From positions 310,001 through 374,000 of the forward strand of contig NZ_QWDE01000003.1 of the NCBI RefSeq assembly GCF_003432065.1: a DNA stretch of 64,000 nucleotides. The letters run 5' to 3'. Below, piece by piece: positions 1,265 to 4,701 of the stretch. Within the stretch, counting starts at the first letter, position 1, and the number at the start of each line of letters is the position of its first letter. The position numbers and the translations under genes were made by a program. The notes under the pieces were generated by a model. That model worked only from the letters and a program-made list of their open reading frames with translations, searched no databases and was not told the origin of the DNA. The stretch comes from Mucilaginibacter terrenus. Its GTDB lineage: Bacteria > Bacteroidota > Bacteroidia > Sphingobacteriales > Sphingobacteriaceae.

Positions 1265-2680
1265 ATGGCAAAAACATTATTCGATAAAATTTGGGATGCG
1301 CACGTCGTCAGCAGCGCTGAGGGCTTTCCCGACGTTTTATACATCGACACTCATTTCATTCATGAGGTAACCAGCCCGCAGGCATTTGACGGCTTGCGCC
1401 AGCGGGGCTTACCGGTTTTCAGGCCGAAACAAACCGTTGCCACGGCCGACCACAACGTCCCTACCTGGGACCAACACCTCCCAATTAAAGAAGAACTTTC
1501 GCGCTACCAGGTTGATATGCTCACCAAAAACTGTAAAGAGTTTGGCATCGAGCTATATGGCCTTGGGCACCCTTACCAGGGTATAGTGCACGTTATAGGC
1601 CCCGAACTGGGCATAACCCGCCCGGGCGGTACTTATGTTTGCGGCGACAGCCATACCTCAACACATGGCGCTTTTGGCGCTATTGCTTTTGGTATCGGCA
1701 CATCGCAGGTAGAACAGGTGCTGGCTACGCAGTGCTTACTGCAGTCGCGCCCTAAGCGCATGAAAATAGAAGTTAACGGCCAACTGCAAAAAGGCGTTGG
1801 CGCTAAAGATATCATCCTGTACATCATTGCGCAGATCTCTGCCGCGGGTGGGACAGGTTACGCGGTTGAATACGCCGGCGATACCATACGCTCCCTGAGC
1901 ATGGAAGGCCGCATGACCATCTGCAACATGAGCATTGAAATGGGTGCACGCTGCGGCTTGATCGCTCCGGACGAAACCACCGTTAACTATGTTAAAGGCC
2001 GCGAATTTGCGCCGAAAGGTGAAGATTGGGACAAAGCCGTTGCTTACTGGCAAACACTTTACTCCGACGCAGATGCGGAGTTTGACAGTGTATTAAGCTT
2101 TAATGCTGAAGATATTGAACCCATGATCACCTATGGTACCAATCCGGGTATGGGCATCGGCGTAACACAGCATGTGCCCGAAACAACATCGTTCGAAGCT
2201 AAAGAACAGGGCTCTTACAAAAAAGCGCTGGACTATATGGGCTTGCATGATGATGAGCAACTGCTTGGACACCCGATTGATTATGTATTTATCGGCAGCT
2301 GTACCAACTCCCGTATTGAAGATTTACGCGAAGTAGCCAAGTTTGTTAAAGGCAAACAAAAGGCCGACAATGTTACGGTTTGGGTAGTACCCGGCTCTAA
2401 ACAAGTTCAGCAGCAGGCGATAGCTGAAGGCCTGGATAAAGTTTTCGAGTCCGCGGGTTTCCCGTTGCGCGAACCGGGCTGCAGTGCTTGCCTGGGCATG
2501 AACGAGGATAAGATACCCGCAGGCAAATATTGCATCTCAACATCAAACAGAAACTTTGAAGGCCGTCAGGGCCCTAATAGCCGTACCTTCCTGGCAAGTC
2601 CGCTTACCGCGGCTGCCAGCGCCATTACGGGCGTGGTTACGGATATCAGGGAGATGTTGTCTGAAGAGGAATTAGTCTGA
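1265..2680 (+). CDS. leuC: 3-isopropylmalate dehydratase large subunit (LeuC)
   Basis: With LeuD it interconverts 2- and 3-isopropylmalate in leucine synthesis. The 471-residue protein is of normal length. The aconitase-family [4Fe-4S] ligands are visible: the first cysteine in GSCTNSR (about residue 344) and two in CSACLG (about 404 and 407). The substrate-binding [10 protein letters not shown] segment is near residue 130. The gene starts 83 bases after ilvC, across a palindrome. Its stop codon lies in GTCTGAACT, a 9-mer repeated 24 bases downstream at the start of the inverted repeat bordering the next gene. Confidence 0.97.
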
Positions 2681-2698
2681 ACTAATCACGCGTCATTG

Positions 2699-2739
2699 GT
2701 CTGAACTCGAATTAAAAGAATTACTTGAATTAGCAGAAT
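2699..2739. repeat. left inverted repeat of the GxxExxY unit
   Basis: This 41-base segment begins GTCTGAACTCGAATT and ends GAATTAGCAGAAT, running into the ATG of the GxxExxY gene. It is inverted relative to 3158-3199: outer ends (GTCTG, then AACTCGAATT) and inner ends (GAATTAnCAGAAT) match, about 30 of 41 positions overall. It also has short GAATT-rich internal repeats. Confidence 0.75.
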
Positions 2740-3142
2740 GGAAACGGGAAGACGGACACCTGAAGACTTTAAGGATTGCACCAGCAAGATAATTGGCTGT
2801 GCAATGCGTGTTCATTCTGCTTTAGGTAACGGTTTTCAGGAAGTAATCTATCAAAGAGCGCTTGAAATAGAAATGGCACGAGAAGGTCTTGTTTTTGAGA
2901 GAGAAATGGAGATGCCTATCTATTATCGGGGTGAGCAGATAGGGACGCGCCGGGTAGATTTCTTTGTAGATGGCGAAGTGATGGTTGAACTTAAAGCGTT
3001 ATTGATGCTGGAAAATGTTCATTTGGCGCAAGGGATTAATTACCTGGAAGCATACGGTATACAAACGGGCTTGTTAATTAACTTTGGAGCTACCAGCCTA
3101 CAGTTCAAACGACTACTAAATAATAAACTGGCAAGAGCTTAA
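2738..3142 (+). CDS. GxxExxY family protein (PD-(D/E)XK nuclease-like)
   Basis: This 134-residue protein carries the family signature as GFQEVIY (about residues 32-38), after the typical CAMRVHSALGN lead-in. A later VDFFVDGEVMVELKA segment has the spaced D...E-x-K of PD-(D/E)XK folds, so a nuclease or nuclease-derived function is inferred; none is established for the family. It interrupts the leuC-leuD pair, whose products form one enzyme, so it is a likely insertion. Inverted repeats of 41-42 bases flank it tightly on both sides, the left one reaching its start codon. Confidence 0.9.
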   Translation: METGRRTPEDFKDCTSKIIGCAMRVHSALGNGFQEVIYQRALEIEMAREGLVFEREMEMPIYYRGEQIGTRRVDFFVDGEVMVELKALLMLENVHLAQGINYLEAYGIQTGLLINFGATSLQFKRLLNNKLARA

Positions 3143-3157
3143 ATAACGAGATCAAGA

Positions 3158-3199
3158 ATTCTGGTAATTCTTCAATTCAATAAAATTCGAGTTCCAGAC
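3158..3199. repeat. right inverted repeat of the GxxExxY unit
   Basis: A 42-base segment starting ATTCTGGTAATTC and ending CGAGTTCCAGAC; its reverse complement aligns with 2699-2739. It starts 16 bases after the GxxExxY stop and ends 16 bases before leuD. The pair defines a unit of about 500 bases. Confidence 0.75.
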
Positions 3200-3214
3200 A
3201 AAAAATAAATTCAG

Positions 3215-3811
3215 ATGGCAACCAAAATATTTAAACATATACAAACCGGCGCGGTACCGCTGCCTATCGAGAACATCGATACCGACCAGATTATCCCTGC
3301 ACGGTTTTTAAAAGCCACTACCCGCGAAGGTTTTGGCAACAACCTGTTTCGCGACTGGCGTTTTGATAACGACGGCAACCCAAAACAGGACTTTGTTCTT
3401 AACGATCCTACCTATAGCGGGAAAGTACTTGTTGCAGGAAAAAACTTTGGCTGCGGCAGCAGCCGCGAGCACGCTGCATGGGCATTGGCCGACTATGGCT
3501 TTGATGCCGTAGTGAGCAGCTTTTTTGCCGACATATTTAAAGGCAATGCCCTTAACAACGGCTTGCTGCCTGTACAGGTAAGCGATGAGTTCCTGAAAAA
3601 GCTCTTCGATGCCATCTATCTTGATCCGCATGCAGAGATTGAGGTGAACCTGGTAGATCAGTTTATTAAAATAGTAGCCACCGGCGATCAGGAAAGCTTT
3701 GAGGTAAACCCTTACAAAAAAGCCTGCATGACCAACGGCTACGATGATATAGATTATATTCTGAGCAAGAAAGAACTAATAGAACAATTCGAAAACCCCC
3801 TAACCCCCTAA
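3215..3811 (+). CDS. leuD: 3-isopropylmalate dehydratase small subunit (LeuD)
   Basis: Swivelling small subunit that completes isopropylmalate isomerase with LeuC. The 198-residue protein has the conserved start ([13 protein letters not shown]) and the [11 protein letters not shown] motif near residue 80. The final residues NPLTP and the stop are read from the left arm of a C-rich/G-rich palindrome (3794-3885), so the native C-terminus appears to have been replaced or extended by the repeat. The catalytic parts are unaffected. Confidence 0.96.
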
Positions 3812-3885
3812 AGGGGGAACAGAAGGGTTTTAACACTAAAAAGTACACAATCAAAAGCTCCCCCTTTAGGGGGCTGGGGGGTTAA
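3794..3885. repeat. large CCCCCTAAAGGGGG palindrome between leuD and a methyltransferase
   Basis: Two copies of a C-rich/G-rich unit face each other: 3794-3820 (CCCCCTAAAGGGGG core) and 3856-3885 (CCCCCTTTAGGGGG core), about 35 bases apart. Each copy is itself a hairpin and the two also pair with each other. It overlaps the leuD stop and ends one base before the next ATG. Related units lie at 4676, 5770 and 22624. Confidence 0.8.
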
Positions 3886-4671
3886 ATGAACTTTCAAAAA
3901 CACATACAACGCGAAGGCAAGGGAACCGCTAAGTTATTTGATGAGCGGAGCCTTACGGCCGACTATGCTACCCTGCCGCCACTATTGCAGCAGGGCTGGC
4001 GCGTGTTGGATGTGGGCTGTGGTACCGGCGCTATCTCCAAAGACATTGCCGCTAAAGTGGCGCATGTTACAGGGATAGACAATACGGAATACTTTATACA
4101 AAGCGGAAAAGAAACTTACGCGGATGTAGATAATCTTGAGCTAATACACGCCGACCTGTTTAGCTATGAGCCGGAAGAAAAATTTGACCTGATTGTAGCT
4201 GCCCGGGTACTGCAATGGTTAAGCGACCCGCAAGCCGCCGTGGTAAAGTTGAAGAGTATGTTAAAGCCGGGAGGCATCCTGTCGGTTTTAGATTATAATC
4301 ATGAGTCGCTGGAGTGGCAACCGCTGCCGCCCGCCAGCATGCTCAAGTTTTATGCAACCTTTTTGAGATGGCGCGGTGATGCCGGCATGAACAATCACAT
4401 TGCTATGGACCTGCCCTGGTACTTTGAAGAAGCCGGGCTATCATCCATAGAGCTTTTAGATGCGCCTGAGTTTTATCAAAGGGGCTACGCCAACTTCGAG
4501 AAAAAAATAGGTATATGGTCGTCTGTAGCGCAGATGACGCAAATGGTAGACGAAGGTTACATCAGCAATGAGGACCGGCTGCAGGCAATAGAAGAATACA
4601 ACAACTGGATACAAACAGGCGCGCAATTGATGATCATGAAATTGGCTGAAGTGCGCGGAGTTAACAAATAA
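3886..4671 (+). CDS. class I SAM-dependent methyltransferase in the leu operon (first)
   Basis: A 261-residue Rossmann-type methyltransferase: motif I VLDVGCGTG at residues 40-48, an acidic residue in GIDNTEY for the SAM ribose, motif IV-like FDLIVAARVLQWL, and a KPGGILSVLD strand-turn. The C-terminal half is family-specific. It resembles trans-aconitate methyltransferase-like proteins in outline, but the substrate is not certain. It sits between leuD and leuB, bounded by C-rich/G-rich palindromes. A role on an isopropylmalate-type acid is a hypothesis from context. Confidence 0.85.
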   Translation: MNFQKHIQREGKGTAKLFDERSLTADYATLPPLLQQGWRVLDVGCGTGAISKDIAAKVAHVTGIDNTEYFIQSGKETYADVDNLELIHADLFSYEPEEKFDLIVAARVLQWLSDPQAAVVKLKSMLKPGGILSVLDYNHESLEWQPLPPASMLKFYATFLRWRGDAGMNNHIAMDLPWYFEEAGLSSIELLDAPEFYQRGYANFEKKIGIWSSVAQMTQMVDEGYISNEDRLQAIEEYNNWIQTGAQLMIMKLAEVRGVNK

Positions 4672-4675
4672 AAAT

Positions 4676-4701
4676 TTCCCCTTTAGGGGATTAAGGGGTT
4701 T
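4676..4701. repeat. single CCCCTTTAGGGG unit before leuB
   Basis: One copy of the C-rich/G-rich palindrome unit (CCCCTTTAGGGG core) fills the gap between the methyltransferase and leuB and ends at the base before the leuB ATG, so it forms the leuB translation initiation region. Confidence 0.7.

Follow-up and report, generated by a model that had tools for sequence, protein, structure and literature searches.

GxxExxY nuclease genes often lie between inverted arms that also recur as gene-less palindromes

Most of the GxxExxY genes that we tested, which encode a small Cas4/RecB-like protein, lie between two inverted arms made of short, regularly spaced units. This anatomy is firm and general, and it recurs across phyla. 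The class of arm follows the protein tree, and the same arms are found scattered over genomes without any gene. The best single reading, which we put forward tentatively and at somewhat less than even confidence, is that gene and arms form a selfish palindromic element whose nuclease would act on its own arms and so make the unit mobile.

The unit described here lies in the window, the 64,000-nucleotide stretch of DNA that we analyzed, which is part of a 4.6-Mb genome. It sits between two ORFs of the forward strand that we take to be leuC, encoding the large subunit of 3-isopropylmalate dehydratase (1265–2680), and leuD, encoding the small subunit (3215–3811; orthologues occur in relatives). 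The left arm, GTCTGAACTCGAATTAAAAGAATTACTTGAATTAGCAGAATG (2699–2740, forward strand), consists of the head GTCTGAAC and the units GAATT/GAATT/GAATT/GAAT about 9 nt apart, and its inner end is the start codon (ATG, 2738–2740) of the GxxExxY gene (2738–3142, forward strand). The right arm (3157–3199, reverse strand), with the head GTCTGGAAC, is an inverted copy of the left one: the reverse complement of 3157–3199, GTCTGGAACTCGAATTTTATTGAATTGAAGAATTACCAGAATT, aligns with 2699–2740, with several mismatches and gaps. When both flanks were dinucleotide-shuffled 5000 times, the pairing score of 19 was never reached (best shuffle, 16.2), so the inverted repeats noted in the first-pass annotation are real. 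Their placement, however, had to be corrected. The left repeat, said to begin at the start codon, ends there instead, and the right one begins 14 rather than 16 bases after the stop codon. Two extra head-like copies, absent from that annotation, lie upstream of the left arm on the forward strand: a degenerate one, GTCTGAAGAGGAATT, inside the 3’ end of leuC (2659–2673; two mismatches relative to GTCTGAACYSGAATT), and a copy of GTCTGAAC (2675–2682) over the leuC stop codon (TGA, 2678–2680) that is part of a direct repeat (2671–2683 / 2695–2707).

GxxExxY is the sole ORF of at least 60 aa between the arms, and the unit holds no transposase or recombinase ORF of that size; unlike an insertion sequence, it has no transposase between its terminal inverted repeats. 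In particular, we found no Y1 (HUH) transposase in the unit, whose ORF matches PDDEXK_3/GxxExxY only. Rfam gave two matches in 2600–3300 of the window, both far below the gathering score, PADLOC gave no match, and PHROGs gave one weak match (E 0.025) of unknown function.

The encoded protein (134 aa) is assigned to the PD-(D/E)XK fold of the Cas4/RecB kind by profile matches, alignment and a structural model. It scored 133.8 bits against TIGR04256 GxxExxY (cut-off 35) and 128.2 bits against PF13366 PDDEXK_3 (cut-off 22). Its closest named relatives (the best 80 of 575) are mostly from Mucilaginibacter and other Bacteroidota. Of the 100 genus genomes sampled, 79 have a member of the family, and the window genome has a single copy. 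In an alignment of 36 GxxExxY proteins from several phyla, mean column identity was 72% and seven residues were invariant (E35, Y38, D74, E84, K86, Q98 and Y102). RecB/Cas4-like nucleases are marked by the residue set E...D...ExK...QxxxY, and the invariant positions can be read as such an active site, which would give them a catalytic role. The AlphaFold model had a mean pLDDT of 91. Top Foldseek matches were SSO0001 (4ic1), which we take to be a Cas4, MGME1, LHK-Exo and lambda exonuclease. VIA-align gave 4ic1 as the best fold match (Z 9.2, rmsd 3.8 over 102), with 4r5q, labelled Cas4, at Z 6.1 and rmsd 3.6 over 107; the chains below 4ic1 were mostly restriction-enzyme-like, at Z about 6 to 7.7, and little informative. 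Two PDB matches by sequence (E 0.44 and 1.3) were not taken as relatives. Among leuC-leuD orthologues dS was usable in 22 of 171 pairs, and the median dN/dS of these was 0.07. Purifying selection thus acts on GxxExxY, a conserved nuclease that shares its fold and its E...D...ExK...QxxxY residues with Cas4, RecB and lambda exonuclease. Cas4 proteins hold an Fe-S cluster by conserved cysteines, whereas no invariant or near-invariant Cys was found among the 36 aligned GxxExxY proteins, and the window protein is about the bare domain. The unit also differs from Cas4/RecB systems in having no helicase or CRISPR partner inside it. According to an excerpt of PMC8934634, a pipeline reported a GxxExxY domain at the expected cas4 position.

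Inverted arms accompany most of the GxxExxY genes that we examined. For each locus, the 200 nt before the gene were aligned with the reverse-complemented 200 nt after it, the same was done for 100 dinucleotide shuffles, and a locus passed if no shuffle equalled the real score. The loci were 91 taken from the best-scoring of 205 matches in the genus and the best 80 of 575 named relatives, and so were the better-scoring family members rather than a random sample. Removal of four loci with short flanks reduced the 171 to 167, of which 162 were distinct by ORF. The test was passed by 80 of 90 genus loci and 50 of 77 named loci, and it detected inverted arms at 125 of the 162 distinct genes and none at the other 37. 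In 15 genomes that their record titles place in other groups, 20 of 28 loci passed with 200 shuffles, including 10 of 15 previously unused loci; the 28 are what remained of 30 loci, from 40 matches, after two with short flanks were dropped. These groups were Ignavibacteriales, Calditrichota/Calditrichia, Chlorobiaceae, Thermochlorobacteriaceae, Desulfobulbus, Desulfobacteraceae, Desulfurellaceae, Spirochaetia, Leptospiraceae, Poribacteria, Chloroflexi, a gammaproteobacterium and Fibrobacter. Gene and arms recur together as a unit in these loci, within the genus and well outside it, which supports this part of the first-pass proposal. Control ORFs passed in 2 of 50 cases in a first set and 5 of 140 in a wider one. 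Two of the five passes were weak, two lay between other repeat families (GTCATTGCGAGC palindromes; CCCCCTAAAGGGGG) and one was RAYT-like, so the test also detects what appears to be a known gene-plus-palindrome system. The ORF at this last locus (L195) starts with MPGTFTQIYIQVVFAVKGRE, presumably RAYT-like, and has inverted repeats on both flanks, the picture expected of REP-RAYT. Among the papers listed in searches of the open-access literature, none describes such arms or repeats for GxxExxY, and a search of papers for the letters of the arms returned no such element among the matches listed.

The arms have a regular internal structure. In 138 arms headed by GTCTGAAC, GA(A/T)T units occur at offsets 10/11, 19/20, 28/29 and 36/37, which amounts to about four units at a spacing of ~9 nt. 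Where the head TCTGAAC was present on both sides, its orientation was correct at 38 and wrong at 2 of the 77 named loci, and correct at 27 and wrong at 2 of the 90 genus loci. Arms of different sequence share this layout (ACCACAGAG..CACAGAG.., ACCGCTGATT.., CGCAAAG..). A rough three-way classification of the 125 rows with arms gave 32 GAATT, 74 GATT and 19 CAGAG/CAAAG. On a FastTree protein tree with few columns and many open forks, arm class required 5 changes, compared with 40 or more (mean 45) in 200 shuffles; with the 37 rows without arms as a fourth state, 36 changes were required, compared with a shuffled mean of 77. Shared repeats in the flanks of other GxxExxY genes, whose absence would have spoken against the first-pass proposal, are therefore present and sorted by protein lineage. 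A shared ancestry of gene and arms would be enough to account for this pattern, which by itself is no demonstration that the protein recognizes the arms.

Among leuC-leuD orthologues, an arm resembles the same arm in other species (27.7, 27.6) more than the opposite arm (21.1). Hairpin covariation was assessed in the 11 of 19 loci that were usable, with the right arm of the window row mis-picked by the head pattern: own pairing beat crossed pairing weakly when the head was included (196 of 5000 permutations as high), and the inner part of the arms gave no support (785 of 5000). A comparison of matched with permuted arms favored pairing in all three classes; we give this result no weight because the loci had been preselected for a good own match. 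It appears, then, to be the arm units rather than their pairing that are conserved in these orthologues. This bears on the idea of an RNA-level element, in which the arms would pair in the transcript, RNase III would cut the stem and the protein would work on RNA. The S23 intervening sequence (IVS) of 23S rRNA in Coxiella, as described in an excerpt of PMC4990558, has the same anatomy, with an ORF between terminal inverted repeats, excision by RNase III, and heptameric tandem repeats before the ORF; moreover, the solitary palindromes described below form good RNA folds (median z –6.4, n=19). We nevertheless consider such an element improbable, given that the units and not the pairing seem to be conserved, that the GxxExxY unit lies between protein genes and not in rRNA, and that the nearest folds are those of DNA nucleases.

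The arms also occur without the gene. The left arm of the window recurs at five further places in the window genome: two gene-less palindromes of 102 bp (L004) and 79 bp (L006), a tandem group that accounts for two places (L003), and a lone half (L005). The exact head GTCTGAACYSGAATT is found in 70 of 100 genus genomes. Among the matches listed for nine genomes, 212 half-sites were typed, a set from which contigs bearing just one half-site are mostly absent. Convergent pairs within 1.5 kb numbered 69, of which 62 spanned 81–122 bp and three 143–318 bp; of the four pairs longer than 500 bp, three enclosed a GxxExxY gene and one (L322) did not. Divergent (2) and tandem (3) pairs were rare among the matches listed. 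Sixteen of 19 solitary palindromes lay outside ORFs of at least 100 aa. The first-pass annotation would have counted it as a refutation if the repeat were equally common beside unrelated genes, and the repeat is indeed mostly located away from the gene, as solitary palindromes of ~90 bp.

Such palindromes could also be terminators or regulatory sites, and the arms operators through which a host-useful nuclease gene is regulated by its own product. Purifying selection on GxxExxY and the coincidence of the window copy’s start codon with the end of the left arm fit this explanation. We think it very doubtful, since an operator has no need for a mirror-image copy beyond the gene’s end. Moreover, the class of the arms shifts from one protein lineage to another, the arms are found again in palindromes that lack a gene and vary little in size, and at leuC-leuD the gene has a patchy distribution among relatives.

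To compare palindromes among close relatives, we took genome G031 and its relatives G090 and/or G017, covering 15 of 20 palindrome loci in 28 comparisons; of the other five loci, one gave no tag and four had no usable match, and one match at a contig end of G017 was left aside. We read the palindrome as shared in 20 of the comparisons, as replaced by another palindrome family in five (GTCATTGCGAGC at L294, L300 and L317; GATT class at L293 and L307), and as partly different or nested in three (L310, L312 and L315). The 28 comparisons at these 15 sites show turnover and hot spots, but in none of them was a solitary palindrome cleanly present in one genome and absent from the other. At L294, L300 and L317, the same orthologous intergenic site holds a GTCTGAAC palindrome in one genome and a GTCATTGCGAGC palindrome in the relative.

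The selfish-element reading would connect these observations as follows. The elements would form a family with two inverted arms, each with a fixed outer head and about four short units ~9 nt apart; the full-length form would carry the GxxExxY gene between the arms, and the short form, of ~90 bp, would be arms alone. The Cas4/RecB-like nuclease would recognize, within palindromes, the units typical of its own class of arm and cut or trim them, probably when they are extruded or single-stranded, after which repair or replication could copy the palindrome, or the whole gene-bearing unit, to the cut place or a similar one. Gene-less palindromes may have spread in trans or may be empty docking sites; taking them as copies or docking sites of the same element is one reading of them, beside that of a passenger gene discussed below. 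We infer the recognition of the arms, the cutting and the copying, as well as the involvement of GxxExxY rather than other machinery.

If the nuclease drives the palindromes, their number might be expected to follow the gene. The 25 genomes with the gene at leuC-leuD have a median of 17 class-A half-sites and none has zero, compared with a median of 1 and zero in 30 among the 75 other genomes (Mann-Whitney p = 5e-9, ignoring kinship). Within the 75, a GxxExxY gene elsewhere had no visible effect on class-A half-sites (p = 0.33). When kinship was considered, using supported branches in 30 genomes, there were five independent pairs, of which 0–3 agreed depending on the threshold and none opposed, too few for significance. 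The link from gene to palindromes is thus one of association. Class-A half-sites were also found in genomes without any GxxExxY gene (36 in G013, 13 in G081, 10 in G046, 9 each in G001 and G099, and 4 in G011). Three of the 25 genomes (G042, G067 and G070) have a leuC-leuD gene of a second group, with the head GTCTGAATCAGAATT or only its inner part, which the counted class-A pattern does not match, yet they hold 20, 96 and 18 class-A half-sites; this abundance despite another head counts against the selfish-element reading. So do the half-sites in genomes that lack the gene, the outcome with kinship considered, the 37 genes at which the flank test detected no arms, the weak signal for arm pairing among leuC-leuD orthologues, the comparisons among relatives that yielded no clean empty site, and the unit’s lack of a transposase or recombinase ORF of 60 aa or more.

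These last two observations would be expected if the palindromes owed their movement or amplification to something unrelated, either a transposase encoded at another locus or slippage of replication at hairpins, and GxxExxY were cargo caught between them and kept for a host function. The same explanation would accommodate the similar arms around S23 genes, which belong to a different family, and the swapping of palindrome families at orthologous sites, including GTCATTGCGAGC palindromes without any gene seen. Still, we regard it as unlikely. Random cargo would not be expected between arms at three quarters of the tested genes, the S23 loci lack arms of the GTCTGAAC or CAGAG kind by eye, and arm class follows the GxxExxY phylogeny, with 5 changes compared with about 45 after shuffling.

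The leuC-leuD spacer illustrates how such a unit is distributed. At least 25 of 100 genus genomes have GxxExxY between leuC and leuD, as do 13 of the 30 leuD loci examined. The first-pass annotation held that the unit splits the two genes. It does lie between them, but this is no fresh disruption: both reading frames are open in the window, and a recent insertion in the window genome alone was rejected because so many relatives have the gene there. On a leuC/leuD tree of 30 genomes, unsupported forks included, presence at this site required 9 parsimony changes, and therefore the gene seems to have been repeatedly gained or lost here, as an occupant of a hot spot. The remaining spacers consist of 6 nt (L245), of palindromes of the GTCATTGCGAGC or the AGATTTGAGAC type, or of a small ORF starting MILEVA, and in genomes without GxxExxY the spacer (L243–L271) is a hot spot with varied occupants. 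The empty site sought in the first-pass annotation exists as the 6-nt spacer of L245; its comparison with filled sites revealed no clear target-site duplication. Most leuC-leuD copies examined are 74–83% identical to the window protein. The second group (L269, L325 and L326; head GTCTGAATCAGAATT in L325 and L326) is 58–61% identical to it. Mapping of the leuC-leuD label on the protein tree gave six changes, of which only two were forced by supported branches, which suggests but does not prove two separate origins at this site. In 10 of 13 filled sites the leuC stop codon is the TGA of GTCTGA, and in L251, L269 and L270 leuC reads into the arm, whose units encode SEPELSELMN-like C-termini. In L253 a copy of GTCTGAAC overlaps the end of leuC, stop codon included, and GxxExxY is absent. 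An arm can therefore provide leuC, a core metabolic gene, with its stop codon or its C-terminus.

Several known systems resemble this unit. In REP-RAYT, a Y1 tyrosine transposase gene lies between inverted copies of a short palindromic repeat, which is also dispersed over the genome with no gene attached. The GxxExxY unit likewise has a gene between inverted repeat copies and gene-less palindromes over the genome, but it encodes a PD-(D/E)XK nuclease instead of an HUH transposase, and its arms are ~40 nt long with about four spaced units. Its head is GTCTGAAC, and not the GTAG/CGTC tags that the title of PMC3733652 names. Like Rickettsia palindromic elements (RPEs) and MITEs, it involves short palindromic repeats, and an arm can form the C-terminus of a host protein, as for leuC above. 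The RPEs described in PMC10969869, however, were found inside ORFs and in frame, whereas most solitary palindromes here (the 16 of 19 noted above) are outside ORFs and a gene-bearing form exists.

A further parallel was unexpected. When the same genus was examined for S23 four-helix-bundle genes (TIGR02436; L212–L241, the 30 best-scoring, one clipped locus dropped), 27 of 29 loci had inverted arms, with sequences unlike those of GxxExxY (AGATTTGAGAC, GTATCAAGTAGCAAG, AAAGTTGAAAGT and TTGTACGTTTTACG) and a period of ~8 nt by eye; none of the tested loci had GTCTGAAC or CAGAG arms, again by eye. As in the S23 IVS, a small ORF of unknown function lies between inverted arms with short tandem units in the GxxExxY unit, but the protein family (PDDEXK) and the arm sequences are different, and the location is between leuC and leuD instead of in rRNA. 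Because the defining protein of each system was looked for and is absent, the GxxExxY unit belongs to neither REP-RAYT nor S23; it is a gene-in-palindrome system beside them. It is conceivable, though on balance we would rather bet against it, that the common orphan families GxxExxY and S23 arrived separately at a single design, in which a small gene lies between inverted arms of units spaced 8–9 nt apart and its product, by recognizing these units, causes palindromes with and without the gene to spread. Were this so, a large part of the palindromic DNA between genes in Bacteroidota would consist of non-autonomous copies, with a Cas4-like nuclease as their driver instead of a transposase. A nuclease that moves or maintains a palindrome without a transposase would represent a mode of spreading of selfish DNA that we know from no described system. 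In any event, an uncharacterized nuclease family of many bacterial groups gains a candidate cognate sequence, and it is linked to dispersed palindromes and to S23 genes.

Another ORF of the window has repeats of its own. The ORF at 3886–4671, after leuD, is flanked by CCCCCTAAAGGGGG-type repeats at 3793–3819 and about 4677–4701, and it scored as a control match in the flank test, via L242.
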